Positions 1,214-52,373 of a stretch of 64,000 nt of DNA are shown piece after piece. The notes under the pieces were generated by a model. The model did no database searches. It saw only the letters and a list, made by a program, of their open reading frames with translations, and was not told where the DNA came from. Positions within the stretch are counted from its first letter, which is position 1, and every line of letters begins with the position of its first letter. The translations under genes were made by a program, and so were the position numbers. Source of the stretch: Candidatus Gastranaerophilales bacterium (lineage in GTDB: Bacteria > Cyanobacteriota > Vampirovibrionia > Gastranaerophilales > Gastranaerophilaceae); contig CALUYZ010000007.1 of NCBI GenBank assembly GCA_944325175.1, positions 1-64,000 of the forward strand. The letters are read 5' to 3'.

Positions 1214-3400
1214 ATGAGAAAAAAAAATATAAAAATAAATTCTAAAAGTTTTGGATTTTCTTTAGTAGAAATATTAATGTCCATTTTAATAGTTTCACTC
1301 ATATTTGTTGCAATGGCGCCTGTTTTCACCAAAAGGATGATGCCGCCAAAAAATAACGGTCTTGTTTTTACATACAAAGGCGCAACGGCTCTTTCAAATC
1401 AAAACAGCTGCTTTATTACCGATGTGGATTTTGAAGACGGAAATTTTGATGAAACATATTTTGCCTCAACGAATTGCAGCGAATATAAATTTAAAGTTCC
1501 AAACGGGGTTCATAAAATTAACTTAACCCTTGTTGCAGGCGGTGGCGGCGGTGGCGGCGCCGCAGGCGGTTTTGAGCAGACAACAACTTTATCTACAACT
1601 GCAAATGAATCTTCTTATCAAACAAACGTAAGCCCCGATATAGTAAAAGGAGCTCAAATTTCATACCTTTCAGCAAAAGGCAAAAATGGCAACAGTGCCT
1701 ATTTTGAAGGAAGTTCCGCAAATACGGAATGTGCTAAAACAATATCAGGGACAACTTCAGGCTACTGCGCAGGTAAAGGCGGTGCATCATCACCTGTCAT
1801 ATACAATTTTAACTTGCCCAATGAATATATAAAAGGTTTGAATTTTGTAAATAATTTATCAACATCATCTCCCATACAAGGAAGATATTTAGTTTCAAAC
1901 GAAGACGGCAATGCCTTATTTTCAGCCTCTTGGGGAGATTTTGCCCAAAGCAAAACAATATCATACGGCATAAATCAAACAAGCAATTCTTATGAACTTT
2001 ATTGCTCGTTAAATGCAACAAAATATATCTCAACAAACAGCTCTTTTTCAAATATATGTCAAATTTCTTCTAACAGCATAATGCAATCAACGGAAGGCGC
2101 TTATGGCACCTATGCGGAAAACGGAAACAGCACAAAAGTAAGCGTAAATACTGTCTATAAAGGCGGTCTTGGCGGCAAGGCACCCCTTTCGTTAGGCTAT
2201 TACGGTGCAGGCGGTCAAGGGCAAAGTTTTCAAATTACAAAATGCCCGCAAGGCACAAGCTATGGACAAACCTGTAATATAAACGAAGCAAACTTCACAA
2301 AGCTTGATTTAGATAACGATGACGGCTCTATAAATGAAATAAGACAAGGTAAAACAGGAAATTCCACACTAATATTGTTAACAGAAAGAGCAGGCGGCAC
2401 AGGCGGTGGCGGCGCAGGGGGTTCTGTTACAAGAATACTCAATATGCAAGTAACCCCAAATGCTACCTACACAATAGTTGTAGGTGCAGGCGGTCAAGGC
2501 GGTCAAGGCGGAAGCAGCTCATCTAATCCGACAGCAGGCGCAAACGGCACAGGCGGAACAACAAGCGCCATATATGATGAAAGCGGCAATTTATTATACA
2601 TGGTAAATGGCGGTGCAGGCGGTCAAGGCGGAAAAGTTTGGAATTCAACCTCAGGAAATTATGCAGGTGAAAACGGCGTTTCAGGCAGAAACTATAAAAT
2701 GCTTGTTACAAAAAATGTTAATCTTTTCAATTCTCTTTCCTTGGATGAAAAGCTTTTATCATCAATAACAACCCTTCCTTCAACTCCTTCTTTTAAAGAT
2801 GAAAATGGCGGGGCTGTTTCAAACATCAATGCAAGAAGATTGGTTTATACAAAATTGCAAAATCAGCCTTATTTGGAATTAAATACAAGAAAAGCTTCAA
2901 ATACAAACTATACAGGCAATCTTGCAAATAAAACAGGCGGTTTTTCAGGTTTTGATATAGCAAATGTCAATGTGTCAAACAGTCAATACGACGGCTTTTA
3001 TTACAGAAGTTTGGTGAACAATCAAGGCGCCTACATTGGCGGTCTTGGCGGTTTTTCGGGACTTGGCACAAAAGCAGGCTGCGGCGGATTTTTTATGGGC
3101 AATTTTGACGGCAGACAAAATGCTGCAGGCGCTATCCCCACAAATGATTTAACAAGATTAAACAATATAAATACATTCACCTATAACAATATCTCATACA
3201 AAGTTTCAGACTATTATGAAAATTGTTCTGCAATAACACCAAACGGCACAAGTGCAGAATTTGTTTCTCCTAAACCAAACTCTTCAAATTTAGGTTCAGC
3301 AGGTTCAGGCGGCGGTGGCGGCGGCTATAACATAAGTTTAGGCTCAGGTAACGGCGGTGACGGGCAAAACGGCTATGTTATGATTGAATGGCGCAAATAA
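1214..3400 (+). CDS. Glycine-rich pseudopilin-like surface protein, copy 1
   Basis: 728 residues. The N-terminus is a class III (type IV pilin-like) signal: a Lys-rich leader, then Gly14-FSLVE with Glu at mature position 5, then a hydrophobic helix to about residue 36. The rest matches the glycine-rich domain seen in some phage tail and surface proteins. It has the entry motif 'FKVPNGVHKINLTLV' then GGGGGGGGAAGG (near residue 110), repeated GAGGQGG turns after 'YTIVVG', and a closing GGGGGGY...'GYVMIEW'. Conserved cysteines flank the domain (NSC, TNCSEY, KAGCGG, ENCS). Such proteins are probably exported and assembled or anchored through the pilin helix. The actual role is unknown. It is the first gene of a three-gene tandem array, 12 nt before copy 2. 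Confidence 0.75.
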   Translation: MRKKNIKINSKSFGFSLVEILMSILIVSLIFVAMAPVFTKRMMPPKNNGLVFTYKGATALSNQNSCFITDVDFEDGNFDETYFASTNCSEYKFKVPNGVHKINLTLVAGGGGGGGAAGGFEQTTTLSTTANESSYQTNVSPDIVKGAQISYLSAKGKNGNSAYFEGSSANTECAKTISGTTSGYCAGKGGASSPVIYNFNLPNEYIKGLNFVNNLSTSSPIQGRYLVSNEDGNALFSASWGDFAQSKTISYGINQTSNSYELYCSLNATKYISTNSSFSNICQISSNSIMQSTEGAYGTYAENGNSTKVSVNTVYKGGLGGKAPLSLGYYGAGGQGQSFQITKCPQGTSYGQTCNINEANFTKLDLDNDDGSINEIRQGKTGNSTLILLTERAGGTGGGGAGGSVTRILNMQVTPNATYTIVVGAGGQGGQGGSSSSNPTAGANGTGGTTSAIYDESGNLLYMVNGGAGGQGGKVWNSTSGNYAGENGVSGRNYKMLVTKNVNLFNSLSLDEKLLSSITTLPSTPSFKDENGGAVSNINARRLVYTKLQNQPYLELNTRKASNTNYTGNLANKTGGFSGFDIANVNVSNSQYDGFYYRSLVNNQGAYIGGLGGFSGLGTKAGCGGFFMGNFDGRQNAAGAIPTNDLTRLNNINTFTYNNISYKVSDYYENCSAITPNGTSAEFVSPKPNSSNLGSAGSGGGGGGYNISLGSGNGGDGQNGYVMIEWRK

Positions 3401-3412
3401 TAAAGAGGCAAA

Positions 3413-5515
3413 ATGATAAAAAATACATTAAAAATAAACAAAAATAAAGCTTTTTCACTTGTTGAGGTGTTAATTTCACTTCTTTTAATATCTCTTGTTA
3501 TGGTTGCCATGGCGCCTGTTATTACAAAAAAGACTACAGAAAAAACAAACGAAGGAATTGTTTATACTTATAATCCAAACAACAATACAATAAATAATAA
3601 TGTTTGCTATATAACAAATTTATCAAGCTATTCTTCAAGTACAGAAACCTATACCTCAACCAGAAATTGTTCTGAATATCAATTTAAGGTTCCAAACGGG
3701 GTTCATAAAATTAACTTAACCCTTGTTGCAGGCGGTGGCGGCGGTGGCGGTGCTGCGGGCGGAAAAACGGAAACAAAAACATTTCAAACACAAGGCGCTG
3801 CCGTAAGTCATACAAATACTCAAGGTTTTAAACCCGATATTTTAAAATCAATAACAATTAAAAACCTTATAGCAAAAGGACAAAATGGTAAAGATGTTAA
3901 CAGCGAATGTAATTCAGGCGACACAAAATGTGGCGGCAGAGGCGGAAATTCTTCTGTTTCATTTTTAAATTTTAAAATTCCCGAAAAATATATAAGGGGC
4001 TTTAATTTCACAAACAGCTTGCAAACCCCGAGTAATTTAAACGGCAAACTTACCATTGAAGCAACCACAAACCCTTATGTTAAAATCACAACATCTGAAA
4101 CATCAAGTTTTATTGAAGCAAATAAAACACAATATGGTATAGATTATGGCGATACAAGCTATTCTCCCTATTGCAATTTAGGCTCTGAATCAAGAATCAC
4201 TTTCACACCCTCAGGTTCTCCCGTTTGCGGAATAATGCCGCCTTATATTATAGATAGCGTTCAAGGCGACTATGGCAGAGGAGAAAGCGGAGAAAAAACA
4301 ATTTATACAGATTCTCAAGGTGCCATTTTTGCAGGCGGTGCAGGCGCTATGGCAAAAGGTTCTTCAACTTTTGGCTCAGGCGGTATGGGCGCATTTTTAA
4401 AACTTGTATGCCCAAATACCCCAACAAACAAAGAATGTTTAGTTAAAAACACGACAGATAGCACCTACACACAAGCTACAGAAGGAAATGGCGCATTTGT
4501 TTCTGTTGATTACACCGTTGAATACGCAGGCGGCACCGGCGGTGGCGGTGCAGGCGGTTCTGCTGCAAGAATAATAGGCTTGGACGTAGTTCCTAATAAA
4601 ACATACACAATCGTTGTAGGTAAAGGCGGAAAAGGCGGAACAGGCGGCAGCACCTCAAATTCTCCGACAGCAGGCGCAAACGGCACAGGCGGAACAACAA
4701 GCGCCATATATGATGAAAGCGGCAATTTATTATACATGGTAAATGGCGGTGCAGGCGGTCAGGGCGGAAGCGTATATGACGGCTCGTCTTATGCAGGAAA
4801 AATGGGCTATTCAGGCAGATTTGCCCCAAAAATTATTTCAGGCGATAAAAATCTTATTTCAAATATAAAATTGGATAATAAACTAAATACAAAATCAAAT
4901 TCAAATATCGGCTCTAAACCTTCAAATGCAGGAAACAGCACATCTTTAGACAGTATTAACATTTTATATCCTTACAACGATACAGAGCCGTTTTTAACCC
5001 TAAACAATAAAAAAGACGACAATCCGGCATCGGTTGATTACAGAACGGGCGGTTTTTCAGGTTTTGATATATCTTCTGTTACATATTCAACTGTTTCATA
5101 TAACGGCGATAATATAAGTTCCGCATACAACGGGCTTTATTACAGAAACCTTATAAATAACTATGGTGCCTACATTGGCGGTCTTGGCGGCTTTTCGGGT
5201 GTTAGCCAAAAAGCAGGCTGCGGCGGATTTTTTATGGGCAATTTTGACGGCAGAACAAACGGCTCATCAAATTCAAGCTTAATAAATAAATTTATTGCAG
5301 GCAACAAGCTGTTTTCGGTTTCAAAATATTATGAAAATTGTTCAATAAATTCGCCAAACGGCACAAGTGCAGAATTTGTTTCTCCTAAACCAAACTCTTC
5401 AAATTTAGGTTCAGCAGGTTCAGGCGGCGGTGGCGGCGGCTATAACATAAGTTTAGGCTCAGGTAACGGCGGTGACGGGCAAAACGGCTATGTTATGATT
5501 GAATGGCGCAAATAA
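3413..5515 (+). CDS. Glycine-rich pseudopilin-like surface protein, copy 2
   Basis: 700 residues, the same architecture as the preceding gene: leader, Ala13 before FSLVE (Ala instead of the usual Gly at the cleavage site), hydrophobic helix, glycine-rich entry motif near residues 100-125, middle 'YTIVVGKGGKGGTGG' and the same C-terminus. Long stretches are identical in DNA to copy 1. The clearest is a perfect 200-bp block covering the last ~160 coding bases and the junction into the next gene (5354-5553 equals 3239-3438). A second block near 4670-4770 equals one near 2534-2634. Between identical blocks the two proteins differ strongly, a mosaic that implies gene conversion or recent duplication. 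RBS-like AAGAGGC precedes the ATG. Confidence 0.75.
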   Translation: MIKNTLKINKNKAFSLVEVLISLLLISLVMVAMAPVITKKTTEKTNEGIVYTYNPNNNTINNNVCYITNLSSYSSSTETYTSTRNCSEYQFKVPNGVHKINLTLVAGGGGGGGAAGGKTETKTFQTQGAAVSHTNTQGFKPDILKSITIKNLIAKGQNGKDVNSECNSGDTKCGGRGGNSSVSFLNFKIPEKYIRGFNFTNSLQTPSNLNGKLTIEATTNPYVKITTSETSSFIEANKTQYGIDYGDTSYSPYCNLGSESRITFTPSGSPVCGIMPPYIIDSVQGDYGRGESGEKTIYTDSQGAIFAGGAGAMAKGSSTFGSGGMGAFLKLVCPNTPTNKECLVKNTTDSTYTQATEGNGAFVSVDYTVEYAGGTGGGGAGGSAARIIGLDVVPNKTYTIVVGKGGKGGTGGSTSNSPTAGANGTGGTTSAIYDESGNLLYMVNGGAGGQGGSVYDGSSYAGKMGYSGRFAPKIISGDKNLISNIKLDNKLNTKSNSNIGSKPSNAGNSTSLDSINILYPYNDTEPFLTLNNKKDDNPASVDYRTGGFSGFDISSVTYSTVSYNGDNISSAYNGLYYRNLINNYGAYIGGLGGFSGVSQKAGCGGFFMGNFDGRTNGSSNSSLINKFIAGNKLFSVSKYYENCSINSPNGTSAEFVSPKPNSSNLGSAGSGGGGGGYNISLGSGNGGDGQNGYVMIEWRK

Positions 5516-36943: not shown

Positions 36944-38477
36944 TTTTACTTTGCAGCCTTCTTAATATATCAGCTTCCTGTTCGCTTTTTAAAACCATTG
37001 ATTTTCTGACAGATTCAATATTTTGAGTGTCTTTTTTGTCTGCAATAGGGCTTTTGTGTTTTGTTATATTTTCATTTTGTGATGATGATTTTATGATGTA
37101 GGTGTGCTTATAATTGGCATCAAAAATTCTTGAATTTATTTCAATACCGATGCGCTCAATTTTTTTCATAAATTCAGGGCGCACACCTGTTGAAACATGG
37201 TTTCCTATAACGGCATTATCACTTACTCCTGTTTGTTTCCAAACAAAAATATCCTGCATGGTAATTACAGATTCTTCCATGCCTGTAATTTCAGAAACCC
37301 TTGTCACTTTTCTGGAACCGTCTTGCAGCCTTGAGGTTTGAATAATTATATTAATAGCCGAAGCTATTTGCTGCTTAATATTTTTACTCGGAAGGTCAAC
37401 CCCTGCATATAAAACCATGGTTTCTAACCTTGAGAGTGCATCTCTTGGCGAATTAGCGTGAAGTGTGGTTAAAGAGCCGTCGTGACCCGTGTTCATGGCT
37501 TGTAACATATCAAGAGTTTCTGCGCCACGACATTCACCGATTACAATTCTATCAGGGCGCATACGAAGCGAGTTTATAACTAAATCTCTTGTTGAAATTT
37601 CACCTTCGCCTTCAATGTTTTTCGGTCTTGTTTCAAGCCTTACAACATGTTCTTGCTGCAAGCAAAGTTCGGCTGAATCTTCTATTGTAATAATTCTTTC
37701 TCCTGAGGGTATTCTTGCAGATAAACTGTTTAATAATGTTGTTTTACCGGCACCTGTTCCGCCTGAAATTATTATGTTGCATCTTGCTCGAACCGCAGCT
37801 TGCAAGACATCTGCAATTTCCGTTGACATTGAACCCCACCTCAATAAGGCTTCAATCGTCCCTGCATCTTTTTTAAAACGTCTTATAGATAATGAAGGAC
37901 CATCTATTGCAAGAGGGGGAATAATTGCGTTTACACGGCTTCCGTCAGCTAATCTGGCATCTACCATTGGAGATTTTTCATCAATTCTTCTGCCCACTTT
38001 TGAAACAATTCTTTCAATGATATTTTTCAAATGGTCGTTATCTTTAAAGGTAACAGATGTTTTATACAGTTTGCCGTTTTTTTCTATATAAACGCTTTTT
38101 GCGCCGTTTACCAAAATATCGCTTATGTTTGGGTCTTCAAGCAATGGGTCCAGCGGACCAAAACCTTTGGTGTCTTGAATAATTTCTTTTATCAGCCGTT
38201 CTTTTTCTGATTTATTAATAGGAACTTGCCTAAAATTACTTGCAATTTGAAATTCAATAAACTGCCTGATTAAATTCTTCTGCTCGTCATCAGAAAAATT
38301 TGACCAATTTGGCGTTGTGTTAACTTTTTCAATCAAAAGCACATGCAGCTGGTCTTTTAGGCTTCTTAATTCCTCATTTAACGGTGTGACGGAATAGTTT
38401 AAATACCCGCTTGAATCTTCTTTTATGTTGCGCTCATTATTATTGTGATTGGCGTTTAATCTGTCTTTTAAAGACAA
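36921..38477 (-). CDS. tadA: Tad secretion ATPase (TadA/CpaF)
   Basis: 518 residues. Hexameric ATPase that powers Flp pilus assembly. Walker A GGTGAGKTT (about 243-251), Asp box, Walker B-like 'RPDRIVIGECRGAETLDML', His box 'GSLTTLHANSPRDAL', and 'ILVNGAKSVYIEKNGKLYK' in the N-terminal part. The C-terminal 90 residues, Lys/Gln-rich, extend past the usual core. The stop of tadZ abuts its start with no gap. Confidence 0.95.
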   Translation of the reverse strand: MSLKDRLNANHNNNERNIKEDSSGYLNYSVTPLNEELRSLKDQLHVLLIEKVNTTPNWSNFSDDEQKNLIRQFIEFQIASNFRQVPINKSEKERLIKEIIQDTKGFGPLDPLLEDPNISDILVNGAKSVYIEKNGKLYKTSVTFKDNDHLKNIIERIVSKVGRRIDEKSPMVDARLADGSRVNAIIPPLAIDGPSLSIRRFKKDAGTIEALLRWGSMSTEIADVLQAAVRARCNIIISGGTGAGKTTLLNSLSARIPSGERIITIEDSAELCLQQEHVVRLETRPKNIEGEGEISTRDLVINSLRMRPDRIVIGECRGAETLDMLQAMNTGHDGSLTTLHANSPRDALSRLETMVLYAGVDLPSKNIKQQIASAINIIIQTSRLQDGSRKVTRVSEITGMEESVITMQDIFVWKQTGVSDNAVIGNHVSTGVRPEFMKKIERIGIEINSRIFDANYKHTYIIKSSSQNENITKHKSPIADKKDTQNIESVRKSMVLKSEQEADILRRLQSKNGRRFNT

Positions 38478-48868: not shown

Positions 48869-49843
48869 TTATCTTCTGATGCAGCGTATAGAGTATGCCC
48901 AAGAACGGCGAGGATGCCCGCAATGACCATTATCAAAACTTTGGTCCCAACCAAATCCGGAATCACCAAGTGAAATAATCGAACCTGACCAATAGTAATC
49001 AGTACTTTCACCCAGTTCAATAAGAGGAGCATTTATAAACATTGACGCAAGCTCATCTCTATTAGGAAGCCTTAAATCATCACCCATAGTTTTGCATGCA
49101 GTTGAAGCATCTATCTTATCTTCTGCCTCTGTGTATTGAGGTGCGGTTGATGCATAATCTTTGCTATATGGATTTGGCGCTACAACAACGGAGTTTTTAT
49201 TATAAAGTGCTGTAATAAATCCAACATCTTTACCAACCTGATTAGGTCCTTCTTCACCATTTAAGTCGTAGACGAAGTTAACACACATTTTGTTTTGAGC
49301 ATAATGTTGATTGGCTGTATCTGAGCCGCAAAGCGGATTATAGAATACCGCAACGGATTCTCCATTTACTGTTTCAAACCCTGCCGCTTTTGTATCTGCA
49401 ATGCCACCTGTTTCAGTGCCTTGCCAATTTGAATCATTTAATAATTTTGCATTTAATTCACTCATTTTAGTTGGAAACTTTAATGCATCTGTTCCGTTTA
49501 ACGTAGCAATGCTTGACGGAATACCGCAAGCAGAAAGCTTATCCGCCCCACAAACATTATTTATCTTATACACCTTCGACAACGCATCCAAAATAAAACT
49601 CTCCGCCGCCGTATCTTCTGTCGCCGTTCCGTCTTCATCTTCCGTATACGTTCCATACCCACCCAACGTATTCATCTGCCCAATCGCTTGCGCCAACCTC
49701 GCATGCAACGCCTTCTTCTGTGCATCCCAAGCCTTTTCATTTACATTCACCAACAAACTCGGCAACGTAATCGCCGCCACAATCCCAATAATCGCCAAAG
49801 TAATCAACACTTCAGCAAGCGTAAAACCTCTAAACTTTTTCAT
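48869..49843 (-). CDS. Pilin-like protein A with variable Lcl_C/C-type-lectin-like tail
   Basis: 324 residues from the ATG at 49843 (AAAGGAAAG before it); an upstream in-frame start at 49876 is less likely. Type IV pilin-like start MKKFRG then FTLAE (cleavage after Gly6, Glu5) and a hydrophobic helix. The middle is close to the two paralogues. The C-terminus, 'DLRLPNRDELASMF' ... YYWSGS ... WDQSF ... IRCIRR, matches the DUF1566/Lcl_C pattern with a C-type-lectin-type fold. The last ~45 codons differ strongly from the paralogues and use CGC/CGT arginine. Codons in the 5' half of this gene (about 49570-49800) end in G far more often than in the paralogues. It would be a minor pilin or adhesin; unproven. 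Confidence 0.85.
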   Translation of the reverse strand: MKKFRGFTLAEVLITLAIIGIVAAITLPSLLVNVNEKAWDAQKKALHARLAQAIGQMNTLGGYGTYTEDEDGTATEDTAAESFILDALSKVYKINNVCGADKLSACGIPSSIATLNGTDALKFPTKMSELNAKLLNDSNWQGTETGGIADTKAAGFETVNGESVAVFYNPLCGSDTANQHYAQNKMCVNFVYDLNGEEGPNQVGKDVGFITALYNKNSVVVAPNPYSKDYASTAPQYTEAEDKIDASTACKTMGDDLRLPNRDELASMFINAPLIELGESTDYYWSGSIISLGDSGFGWDQSFDNGHCGHPRRSWAYSIRCIRR

Positions 49844-50007
49844 ATTTTCTGCTTTCCTTTCAACTTTTTGCACCAATCTGTTTTATTTTGTTGCAACCCA
49901 TTGAAAGTACCATATTTACAACGTTTTTGCCCACTCAAAAACCCCATCCATTCTTTTTTCCAACCTTGAACAAAATCCAAAACAATGCTATATTAATAAA
50001 AAGACCT

Positions 50008-50041
50008 AAAATGCACCAAACTAAAACATTTTGGTGCATTT
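50008..50041. terminator. Conserved hairpin upstream of pilin A
   Basis: AAATGCACCAAA (50009-50020) pairs with TTTGGTGCATTT (50030-50041), with T or A runs on both sides. A nearly identical hairpin lies at the same distance upstream of pilin B (51335-51369). It may be a terminator or a regulatory structure. It shares the TTGGTGCA core with the leaders of pilins A and B. Confidence 0.6.
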
Positions 50042-50077
50042 TTTATTATCAAATTCCCCCGCAAAGTAGCAAGGTAG

Positions 50078-50096
50078 GTTGGGCTTTCAGCCCAAC
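50078..50096. repeat. Short GC-rich palindrome (REP-like)
   Basis: GTTGGGCT and AGCCCAAC form an 8-bp stem with a 3-base loop, preceded by TAG. No T run follows. Its GC content contrasts with the AT-rich surroundings. Similar GTTGGG-based palindromes are dispersed in many cyanobacterial genomes; only one copy is in this window. Confidence 0.5.
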
Positions 50097-50150
50097 AGCA
50101 TAAAGCATCAAAACATTTTTCCGCCACCCCTTTTGAAGCACCAAAAACAA

Positions 50151-50182
50151 AACAAGTGTCACTTAAAAATGGCACTTGTTTG
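50151..50182 (-). terminator. Terminator of pilin-like gene B
   Basis: AACAAGTG (50151-50158) pairs with CACTTGTT (50173-50180). On the minus strand a T-rich tail follows. Confidence 0.75.
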
Positions 50183-50203
50183 ATAATGAAGTTGATTAGA
50201 AAT

Positions 50204-51172
50204 TTATCTTTTGATGCAGCGCACGTAGTTCGTAAGAGTACGAGAGTTGCGACCACGTCCACCGGTATCGAAGCCCTGTGCCCAGACTAATCCGGAAGCT
50301 CCCGGTGAAATAACTGAGCCTGACCAATAGCCGCTAATGTTACCTATGTTGATAAGAGGAGTGTTTACAAATAATGATGCAAGTTCATCTCTATCAGGCA
50401 ATCTTAGGTCTTCCCCCATGGTTTTACAAACTGATATTGCATCTACTGTTTTTTCTGTTTCCGCATAGTATTGTACTGCCATTGCATAGTCTGTGCTGTA
50501 TGGAACAGGTGCTACAACGACAGGGTTTTTGTTATAAAAAGCTGTGATGAAGCCTACATCTTTACCTACTTGATTAGGTCCTTCGACACCATTTAGGTCA
50601 TATATAAAATTAATACACATTTTGTTTTGAGCATAATGTTCTGCAGAAGTATCTGAACTGCATAATGGGTTATAAAAGACTGCTAGTGATTCACCATTAA
50701 CTGTTTCAAATGCAGCTGCTTTGGTATCTGCCATGTCGCCGTTTTCATTTTCTACATGAAGACCGTTTAATAATTTTGAATTCAATTCGCTCATTTTGGT
50801 TGGAAATGCGATTTCAGATGTTGCATTTAGTGTTGTAATTTTGCTTGGAATACCGCAAGAGGAAAGTTTATCGGGTCCGCAAACGTTGTTTATTTTGTAA
50901 ACTTTTGATAATGCGTCTAAAATAAAGCTTTCAGCAGCGGTATCTGCCGTTGCGGTTCCTTCTTCATCAGTTTCAAATGTTCCATACCCGCCCAACGTAT
51001 TCATCTGCCCAATCGCTTGCGCCATCCTTGCATGCAACGCCTTTCTCTGCGCTTCCCATGCTTTTTCGTTAACATTTACAAGCAAACTGGGTAAAGTAAT
51101 TGCAGCAACAATGCCGATAATTGCTAAAGTAATTAAAATTTCAGCTAAAGTAAAGCCTTTAAACTTTTTCAT
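50204..51172 (-). CDS. Pilin-like protein B with variable Lcl_C/C-type-lectin-like tail
   Basis: 322 residues; the ATG at 51172 follows GAAAGGA. MKKFKG then FTLAE prepilin start. Its conserved middle ('FYNPLCSSDTSAEHYAQNKMC', 'NQVGKDVGFITAFYNKNPVVVAP') is close to A and C. The tail after YWSGS reads VWAQGF then Gly/Arg/Asn-rich, ending YVRCIKR. Four of its five tail arginines are CGT/CGC, while those upstream are AGA/AGG. A patch near 50986-51040 is almost identical to pilin A but not to C, a sign of gene conversion. The 5' leader (TTGGTGCAAAA-GTTGAAAGGA) is shared with pilin A. Confidence 0.85.
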   Translation of the reverse strand: MKKFKGFTLAEILITLAIIGIVAAITLPSLLVNVNEKAWEAQRKALHARMAQAIGQMNTLGGYGTFETDEEGTATADTAAESFILDALSKVYKINNVCGPDKLSSCGIPSKITTLNATSEIAFPTKMSELNSKLLNGLHVENENGDMADTKAAAFETVNGESLAVFYNPLCSSDTSAEHYAQNKMCINFIYDLNGVEGPNQVGKDVGFITAFYNKNPVVVAPVPYSTDYAMAVQYYAETEKTVDAISVCKTMGEDLRLPDRDELASLFVNTPLINIGNISGYWSGSVISPGASGLVWAQGFDTGGRGRNSRTLTNYVRCIKR

Positions 51173-51334
51173 ATTTTTCTATCCTTTCAACTTTTGCACC
51201 AATTTGAGCTAATTTGATGCAAGTAGTTGAAAGTGCTATTATGAAGGGGTTTTAGGGATTAAAAAGTAAAATATATTAAGGATTTGGGCTCTTGAATTAA
51301 TAGGGAAACAATGATATATTAAGAAAAAGAAGAT

Positions 51335-51369
51335 AAAATGCACCAAGATAGCTCATTTTGGTGCATTTT
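51335..51369. terminator. Conserved hairpin between pilin genes B and C
   Basis: AAAATGCACCAA (51335-51346) and TTGGTGCATTTT (51358-51369). It lies after the stop of pilin C on the minus strand and upstream of pilin B. Sequence to its left in the transcription direction (TTAATATA...CATTGTTT) is also shared with the copy before pilin A. Confidence 0.65.
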
Positions 51370-51401
51370 TGCGGTTATGGTATTAAATTTGTTTGGAGAA
51401 T

Positions 51402-52373
51402 TTATTTTTTTATGCAGCGAACATAATAGGTGTTGGAACGAACGCTGCGAGCTCTGCTGCCGAGGGTGAAGCTTTGGTTCCAAGCAAAGCCTGATGCACC
51501 TGATGAAATGACGGAGCCTGACCAGTAGCTTGTTTTGTTATCGGCAAGATTAATTAGGGGTGCATTGATAAAAAGAGATGCAATTTCATCTCTATCGGGA
51601 AGTCTTAAATCTTCTGCCATTGTTTTGCATGCGCTTGATGCATCAACTGTTGCTGATGTATCTGTGAATTGAGCGACAGTTGAGGTGTAATCTGCGGTGT
51701 GGGGGGCAGGTGCCACAACAACAGGGTTTTTATTATAAAAAGCTGTTATAAAGCCAACATCTTTGCCCACTTGGTTTGGTCCTTCTGTGCCATTTAGGTC
51801 GTATACAAAATTAACACACATTTTGTTTTGAACATAATGAGTTGCGCTTGTATCCGAACTGCACAAAGGATTATAAAAGACAGCGATTGATTCGCCGTTT
51901 ACTGTTTCAAATGCAGCAGCTTTTGTGTCTGCTACATCGCCGTATTCACCTTCATAATGCTGTCCGTTCAACAATTTGCTGTTTAGTTCGCTAATTTTTG
52001 TCGGAAATGTAATTTCAGATGTTGCATTTAGGGTTGTAATTTTGCTTGGAATACCGCAAGAAGAAAGCTTATCAGGACCGCACACGTTATTTATTTTATA
52101 AACTTTAGAAAGCGCATCTAAAATAAAATTTTCAGCAGATGTATCAACTGTCGCATCTTCTGTTTCGCCTTTTGTGTATGTTCCATACCCGCCCAGTGTG
52201 TTCATTTGTCCAATAGCTTGAGCCAACCTTGCATGTAATGCCTTCTTTTGAGCATCCCATGCTTTTTCATTCACATTTACAAGCAAACCGGGTAACGTAA
52301 TTGCTGCAACGATACCAATAATCGCCAAAGTAATCAGAATTTCTGCAAGCGTAAAGCCTTTTAATTTCTTCAT
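51402..52373 (-). CDS. Pilin-like protein C with variable Lcl_C/C-type-lectin-like tail
   Basis: 323 residues from the ATG at 52373 (AAAGAAAGGT before it); an in-frame start at 52406 is less likely. MKKLKG then FTLAE start. Middle region as in A and B with local differences (KGETEDATVDTSAEN segment). Tail: SYWSGS, AWNQSF, then Thr/Leu/Ser/Arg/Asn codons nearly all ending in C or T, then YYVRCIKK. Its codons in the conserved part end mostly in A/T, as in the rest of the window. Its upstream region differs from that of A and B and lacks the TTGGTGCA leader. The 52,407-52,661 gap holds no gene that I can see. Confidence 0.85.
   Translation of the reverse strand: MKKLKGFTLAEILITLAIIGIVAAITLPGLLVNVNEKAWDAQKKALHARLAQAIGQMNTLGGYGTYTKGETEDATVDTSAENFILDALSKVYKINNVCGPDKLSSCGIPSKITTLNATSEITFPTKISELNSKLLNGQHYEGEYGDVADTKAAAFETVNGESIAVFYNPLCSSDTSATHYVQNKMCVNFVYDLNGTEGPNQVGKDVGFITAFYNKNPVVVAPAPHTADYTSTVAQFTDTSATVDASSACKTMAEDLRLPDRDEIASLFINAPLINLADNKTSYWSGSVISSGASGFAWNQSFTLGSRARSVRSNTYYVRCIKK

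Follow-up and report, generated by a model that had tools for sequence, protein, structure and literature searches.

The question raised by this stretch of DNA is why three neighbouring pilin-like genes should differ so strongly at their very ends, and what could have written those ends. The window, meaning the whole stretch of 64,000 nucleotides (nt) that was analysed, is positions 1 to 64,000 of contig CALUYZ010000007.1 (here C7) of Candidatus Gastranaerophilales bacterium (assembly GCA_944325175.1), a metagenome-assembled genome (MAG) of 2.02 Mb in 52 contigs that is 89% complete. A previous sequence-only reading had described three pilin-like genes, here A, B and C, and proposed that their last codons are targets of a diversity-generating retroelement (DGR). 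Our analysis makes it very probable, as far as sequence comparison can tell, that A, B and C are members of a dispersed set of pilin-type genes, at least 92 in number, in which a single DGR acting in trans from another contig, C2, wrote the last 41 codons. The proposal was supported by the locus on C2, with its reverse transcriptase (RT), Avd and template; the scale of the system had been missed.

The whole-genome search that had been suggested, for a DGR-type RT and a template rich in AAC and AAT codons (AAY hereafter), found RT, Avd, template and a template-matched tail together on C2. There are five RT matches in the genome, and the one on C2 (locus L002) lies next to avd and to a fourth member of the pilin family; avd and the template repeat lie on the same strand, with the adjoining RT and one pilin on the opposite strand. 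The RT scored over the cut-off of RVT_1 and matched phrog_1423 with an E-value of 8e-100, while the NCBIfam scan gave no DGR-specific RT model for it, the best match being a group II intron model below cut-off. Avd reached 52.5 bits with bAvd PF22296 (cut-off 40) and matched phrog_3206 (E 6e-20); in NCBIfam it was matched with an E-value of 4e-12, yet with 46 bits against a cut-off of 80. The ten hypervariable codons of the template are all AAC or AAT, and one further AAC directly before the 41-codon stretch may be an eleventh AAY codon. The tail of the RT-adjacent pilin differs from the template at 0/93 non-adenine positions and at 6/20 AAY adenines. The window itself had been said to lack both RT and template, and this was confirmed: no RT match was found on C7, and the single template-like copy sits on C2. 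In this genome the RT is inverted relative to avd and the template (L002 551-2415), and in two relatives, G002 and G017, one strand carries all three (L100, L101); the inverted RT may need its own promoter.

The three genes are intact pilin-like open reading frames (ORFs) and lie where they had been placed. They had been described as nearly alike up to a DLRLP motif and diverging thereafter; the divergence in the last 41 codons was recovered, but the likeness had been overstated, since B shares 73% of its amino acids with A and 79% with C. Furthermore, each of them has its closest body elsewhere in the genome (79-81% nt identity among the 76 complete genes on which all body comparisons were made), and on this ground we rejected the possibility that A, B and C are recent tandem copies. 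The reported bias of the tails towards codons ending in C or T (NNY) is present at the ten template AAY codons, with 8/10 in A, 8/10 in B and 10/10 in C. The contrast in arginine codons could also be observed, with AGA or AGG in 11/11 cases upstream and CGC or CGT in 10/14 cases in the tails; however, the derivation of these codons from AAY applies to one of the ten tail arginines, and the other nine stand at codons that are already CGC or CGT in the template. Changes relative to the template are concentrated at the first and second positions of the AAY codons (see the table), as compared with 9/56 of the other first and second tail positions in A, 4/56 in B and 4/56 in C, and the excess is significant in each gene (Fisher test, 9e-5, 1e-7 and 2e-5, respectively).

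A motif search of the whole genome returned 90 places, one of which is the template, and the reversed pattern returned 6; in the other motif searches the reversed patterns gave 8 against 81 and 8 against 50, and 23 against 123 in this genome. In the fetched loci, pilin-type tails numbered 91 of 41 codons and one of 40, which gives the figure of at least 92. Among the 94 tail candidates, 74 correspond to complete genes of 315-332 amino acids (aa) inside the fetched pieces; the remainder are two apparent broken frames (L036, L060), three false hits and fifteen that extend beyond the piece fetched; for B, C and the RT-adjacent gene among these, the full gene was read elsewhere. Once five tails cut by locus ends and the 40-codon tail are set aside, 88/89 tails, template included, have the same length. 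At about 970 nt per gene, 92 genes would amount to near 90 kb, some 4% of the assembly. The search for a shared promoter gave a weak upstream consensus over the 74 genes, apart from an A-rich, AGGA-like stretch before the start.

If non-adenine difference from the template is read as time since writing, the tails can be ordered by age. The analyses of drift, sharing and age were carried out on 91 tails, the three false hits, which are antisense, having been removed from the 94 candidates; the classes of 0-9, 10-19, 20-29, 30-39 and 40 or more non-adenine differences hold 7, 24, 19, 26 and 15 tails, respectively. The proportion of AAY first and second positions changed is flat over the five classes (0.59-0.63), whereas that of the other first and second positions rises from youngest to oldest (0.02, 0.08, 0.13, 0.19 and 0.28). 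For all 94 candidates together, 0.615 of AAY first and second positions, 0.157 of other first and second positions and 0.494 of other wobble positions are changed. Mutated AAY codons end in C or T in 519/627 cases over the 76 complete genes, compared with 0.50 of body codons, and the share still NNY falls with age class (1.00, 0.89, 0.87, 0.79 and 0.66).

The freshest tails are the most informative with respect to the mechanism. In 17 fresh tails of five genomes, 177/316 AAN adenines and 36/1447 non-adenines are changed, although the definition of a fresh tail (four or fewer non-adenine differences) by itself keeps the non-adenine count low and leaves the adenine count free. In this genome, wobble sites agree with the template at 0.92-0.97 in the four freshest remote tails, and their bodies agree with that of the RT-adjacent pilin at 0.74-0.83. 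The finding of adenine-directed differences in fresh tails, even on drifted gene bodies, points to homing in trans. The expectation that variation would lie at template adenines was checked across species and held in the fresh tails: in CALUQY and CALVBO, which have the same template, the RT-adjacent pilins share 86% of body nt, the tails are distinguished by 7 codons, in which every change falls on a template adenine, and all other bases are identical. Among the tails read in fetched loci, 31/31 of G002 and 13/13 of G017 are nearest to the template of their own genome. Another aspect to mention is that T stands at tail positions 75 and 93 in 48/87 tails each, where the template and its neighbour pilin have C; since the four freshest remote tails have T at 93 (4/4) and at 75 (3/4), the pattern suggests a change in the template itself later than the writing of these tails.

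As regards the relationship among the tails, mutated AAY dinucleotides are shared among the 91 tails at the level of shuffled tails, save for one pair, the copies on C18 and C38, which shares 8. Because sharing is as rare as in shuffled data, most tails would have been written independently or have drifted too far to show kinship, and the oldest tails are compatible with either. Clonal spread of already diversified genes was accordingly rejected for most tails, with the C18/C38 pair excepted. Partial homing tracts were rejected as well, given that template-matching wobble runs reached p<0.05 in 2/91 tails, fewer than expected by chance. This test gave no fresh tract in the tails of A, B or C, both tails below the threshold being outside the window.

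The tails of A, B and C are best read, from these comparisons, as old and now fixed products. Two possibilities had been offered, that the template acts from a distance or that the tails are relics, and each of them stands in part: the template appears to act from a distance, and A, B and C look like old products. In the mechanism that we propose, the template RNA would be copied by the RT with Avd, with errors at adenines, and a pilin gene would have its 3' end replaced by the complementary DNA. The tails of A, B and C would have been acquired long ago and have drifted since by ordinary mutation with the scaffold kept, and these genes are now probably a fixed share of the repertoire. Each protein would be a type IV pilin or pseudopilin whose C-type-lectin-like tip shows about ten variable residues, and the cell would carry many ready-made adhesins or receptors and could still write new ones. 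We lean, with considerable reserve, towards the wider proposal that about 90 dispersed pilin genes were each written separately by the one DGR, with a few still fresh and the majority frozen, leaving both a layered record of the template's past and a standing library of adhesin tips, in which recombination would keep the stalks alike and the retroelement would keep the tips apart. The same state is observed in G002, of the same genus, where at least 31 tails follow their own template.

Relatives were surveyed in 58 genomes, this one included. An RT match at E 1e-20 was obtained in 8, with 60% or more identity in this genome, G002 and G017, and with 50-57% in four other relatives. Some family match is present in 52/58 genomes, most of them weak and, where listed, mainly N-terminal; among the matches listed, strong full-length ones are from this genome, G002, G017 and G004, and family sizes in this survey are lower bounds, at most 38 candidates having been scored per genome. 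G004, which is 99% complete, has at least 25 family matches, and no RT or Avd match was found in it, which fits a loss of the DGR machine. In G042, an RT 55% alike is accompanied by a template resembling the tail (YWSSTE...) of a different, lectin-looking protein (L103, 443-562 and 1342-1464), so the DGR machine apparently has other targets in the order. A search of the named genome collection with the RT as a single protein gave no relative, whereas the search with the pilin alignment did find relatives.

For pilin loci outside this set, the best 80 of 395 relatives were kept, 79 of them being outside loci from six MAGs. Five of the six are titled Melainabacteria, Gastranaerophilales or Gastranaerophilus and one Fusobacterium (JAMPIJ), and in 6/6 there is an RT at 60-63% identity with an AAY-rich template beside it. 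A template beside the RT is present in seven further genomes, G017 and CAMUPF being counted once, since CAMUPF (G058) has identical coordinates to G017 and seems to be that genome. JAMPIJ01 (NALB_7963_5, titled Fusobacterium sp.) carries the pilin family and the DGR (L171, L174 and others), and its title is probably wrong. The pilin of L174 (match 2001-2990) has a tail that equals the template exactly, with all AAY codons unmutated, and is either an unwritten target or a recent error-free copy. Near-conserved tails of other lengths were observed between MAGs in three groups (L195, L199 and L236; L216, L218 and L245; L193 and L203).

Several observations weigh against the DGR reading or narrow it. 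It should be noted that 5/91 tails have four or fewer non-adenine differences (one is perfect there), and because of this "90" is the number of tails written at some time, not of live targets. Several copies lie at contig ends of an incomplete MAG, so the true copy number may differ from 92. The NNY bias also counts for less on its own: where any other mutated tail codon ends in C or T in the template, the ending is kept in 3/3, 63/71, 73/86, 105/146 and 61/122 cases by age class, about as often up to middle age, and NNY therefore shows that the tail descends from the template rather than that adenines as such were targeted; in the 15 oldest tails the NNY share (0.66) is near background. Within this genome, 77/94 tail candidates (3 of them false) are nearest to its own template. 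In the fresh genes the last 45 body codons are more alike (0.81-1.00) than those further up (0.72-0.82), so that recombination between copies may have moved some fresh tails. Concerning the window genes, the tails of A, B and C match the template at 0.41, 0.59 and 0.41 of wobble sites, compared with body matches to the RT-adjacent pilin of 0.59, 0.62 and 0.57; because their tails are no fresher than their bodies, we infer from the family that this template wrote them, and the writing of the oldest tails by this DGR we infer likewise. B is in both tail pairs that share five mutated dinucleotides, which is about the chance number of such pairs, and a kinship of its tail with other tails is possible. 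Among relatives, the five other MAGs have a 41-codon tail in 9/48 of their best pilin loci, with varying lengths and few tails matching the template, and some pilin tails are conserved between MAGs; because other-MAG tails are mostly off-template and some are conserved, such pilins also diversify without the DGR, and the conserved tails show long-lived tips outside its rewriting. The idea that a state of ninety tails is general to RT-bearing genomes was rejected on account of the five MAGs; it was retained for this genome and G002, and G017 has fewer tails (13). Finally, because relatives without RT have many weaker, more distant and mostly N-terminal pilin matches, the stalk family is larger than the DGR.

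These points leave room for other explanations. If the present template still rewrote A, B and C occasionally, as live targets, the retention of the scaffold and of the 41-codon length would be accounted for, as would the template 3' end that B retains (TACGAACTACGTGCGCTGC); the 21-30 non-adenine differences in the three tails, which lack a fresh tract and are no fresher than the bodies, make this quite unlikely. It is unlikely, too, that A, B and C were written by a second template, lost or unassembled, instead of by an older state of the present one. The missing 11% of the genome could hold such a template, and many tails share non-template bases, as at positions 75 and 93; on the other hand, one template-like copy was found among the 90 motif places, and a recent change of the template explains the T in the freshest remote tails. 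A, B and C may have been written by the present template, by an earlier state of it or by a lost sister.

A scheme like Neisseria pilin variation, in which recombination shuffles tails between copies and the DGR is a minor source, is highly improbable in our opinion, even though recombination has left its marks. Long identical tracts join otherwise diverged bodies, with a run of 60 nt or more in 58/2850 pairs, among them 480 nt between the C18 and C38 copies, the pair that also shares mutated dinucleotides; two neighbouring pilins on C2 (L010 1882-2847 and L065 471-1439) have the same sequence for the first 687 nt and then fall to about 60% likeness toward the tail, which is either recent gene conversion or assembly error. 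The greater likeness of fresh-gene bodies beside the tail is in line with such shuffling. However, 2/58 of the long runs reach the last 123 nt, mutated codons are shared between tails, one pair excepted, no more often than after shuffling, the 74 copies with a complete ORF are not silent fragments, and long tracts in a MAG could be assembly errors; if they are not, recombination keeps the stalks alike while the tips differ. Alternatively, the old tails, those of A, B and C included, could belong to ordinary lectin-tip paralogues that diversifying selection has shaped without any writing by a DGR, the template having been derived from one of them. Ligand-facing residues in C-type-lectin-like folds often vary, and the off-template, variable-length and partly conserved tails of the five other MAGs speak for this possibility. 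It is nevertheless very unlikely, in view of the same length in nearly all tails of this genome, an AAY excess equal at all ages and significant in each of A, B and C, and an NNY share that falls steadily with age; for fresh tails it is excluded by the adenine-directed differences and by template-like tails on diverged bodies. Writing by the C2 retroelement in trans is the explanation that we retain for the family.

With regard to the proteins, A, B and C have a prepilin N-terminal cleavage/methylation motif, with PF07963 and TIGR02532 over cut-off. Their C-terminal stretch is related to the Legionella Lcl domain PF07603 (E 6e-5 to 2e-4), at 22.0-23.7 bits, below the gathering score of 34.9. 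We modelled B with AlphaFold2 from 46 family members, most rows matching residues 221-322, and the mean pLDDT (predicted local distance difference test) was 87. The best PDB match of the model in VIA-align was the Legionella Lcl C-terminal domain 8q4e (Z 12.6 over 111 residues, root-mean-square deviation 4.1), followed by the Bdellovibrio Bd2740 C-terminal domain (Z 10.7) and by C-type lectins and intimin/invasin-type domains (Z 8-9.6); Foldseek gave the Lcl C-terminal domain as best match with E 1.2e-3, and none at 0.001 or below. The tip thus models as a C-type-lectin-like Lcl domain. The T2SSE ATPase matches in the genome show that genes for pilus-type machinery are present, not that they serve these pilins. 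The proteins of A, B and C would be displayed at the surface, and through the family the cell may be equipped with a large and varied set of binding tips on its surface.

Further RT genes were noticed elsewhere in the genome. A second DGR-like locus, L001 (G000:C4:20485-24084), has an RT at 1261-2358 on the minus strand (phrog_1423) and, at 2871-3461 on the same strand, an ORF that is a phage tail-protein relative (phrog_5302), with a possible template seen by eye between them; it looks like a prophage DGR. L003/L004 (G000:C6:61009-66119) holds two adjacent RT genes, the first of which passes the curated cut-off as a Drt3a antiviral reverse transcriptase, and L005 (G000:C42) has a retron-like RT at 548-1543 on the minus strand, whose best model is the retron St85 family (E 9e-34, under cut-off).

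Table. Coordinates of the features discussed (window positions, except for the template repeat, which is numbered within locus L002 on C2)
Feature	Position	Strand	Remarks
Pilin-like gene A, 324 aa	48869..49843	-	Type IV prepilin N-terminus and C-type-lectin-like C-terminus
Variable tail of A, 41 codons and stop	48869..48994	-	30/93 non-adenine template positions and 13/20 AAY adenines (codon positions 1-2) changed
Pilin-like gene B, 322 aa	50204..51172	-	Pilin-like ORF
Variable tail of B	50204..50329	-	21/93 non-adenine positions and 14/20 AAY adenines (codon positions 1-2) changed
Pilin-like gene C, 323 aa	51402..52373	-	Pilin-like ORF
Variable tail of C	51402..51527	-	29/93 non-adenine positions and 11/20 AAY adenines (codon positions 1-2) changed
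T2SSE-family ATPase match (type II secretion / type IV pilus motor family)	37269..38168	-	One of five over cut-off in the genome
Template repeat	L002 1066-1191	+	Tail copy without upstream pilin frame, opposite strand to RT-adjacent pilin

Every part of this system is of a known kind; what our search, which covered open-licence literature, did not return is its scale and its lineage, and it gave no account of this system and no report from this lineage. In Neisseria, silent fragments (pilS) recombine into the expressed gene (pilE). The family described here resembles that system in its many pilin copies with variable ends, and differs from it in consisting of complete genes whose tails follow a non-coding template. 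Some Bacteroides DGRs are reported to diversify pilin-type adhesins. The Legionella Lcl C-terminal domain (PF07603) is the best relative of the tip both in sequence and in fold, whereas here the domain scores below gathering and stands behind a prepilin stalk.

A close parallel is the DGR of Treponema denticola (TvpA family), in which one RT and one template serve several remote targets with a C-type-lectin fold, some with excess mutations (PMC4891356). Isolates have two to seven targets, and those lacking RT and template still retain target genes (PMC4891356). In contrast, here there are at least 92 template-like tails, five of them fresh, and the proteins are pilins instead of FGE-type proteins. 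In cyanobacterial DGRs, too, C-type-lectin paralogues are dispersed and resemble the template to graded extents at their 3' ends; these DGRs differ in having 76 remote targets over 21 genomes, mostly the lectin alone or fused to a putative kinase domain, and the word "pilin" is absent from the main text of that paper (PMC7517822). In Thiohalocapsa PB-PSB1, activity in trans was likewise deduced from a perfect non-adenine match to a distant template, but there nine DGR loci serve 15 target proteins with 21 tails, proposed to be antigen sensors (PMC10907252). Another study claims one template with a dozen to hundreds of copies; its named case, Pseudomonas costantinii, with 91 template-copy pairs, 21 merged repeats in one ORF and few adenine changes, is of another sort than the present dispersed family (PMC6642488). 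A large metagenome survey states that its own method would not detect remote targets, and for this reason systems of this type may have been missed so far (PMC8144416).

With 5/91 tails fresh, there may be about as many live targets here as in known systems, and what is exceptional is the number of tails apparently written and kept. If our interpretation is true, tail ages could be read inside a single genome with non-adenine drift as a clock, the family would be a natural test of how much target drift homing tolerates, and a repertoire-type surface system would exist in relatives of Cyanobacteria; in addition, G004, with its pilin family and no RT or Avd found, lets the fate of a library without its writer be asked. 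In terms of scale, one template matches about ninety tails of graded age in this genome, compared with up to seven genes for one template in T. denticola and with 15 targets for nine loci in PB-PSB1 (PMC4891356, PMC10907252).

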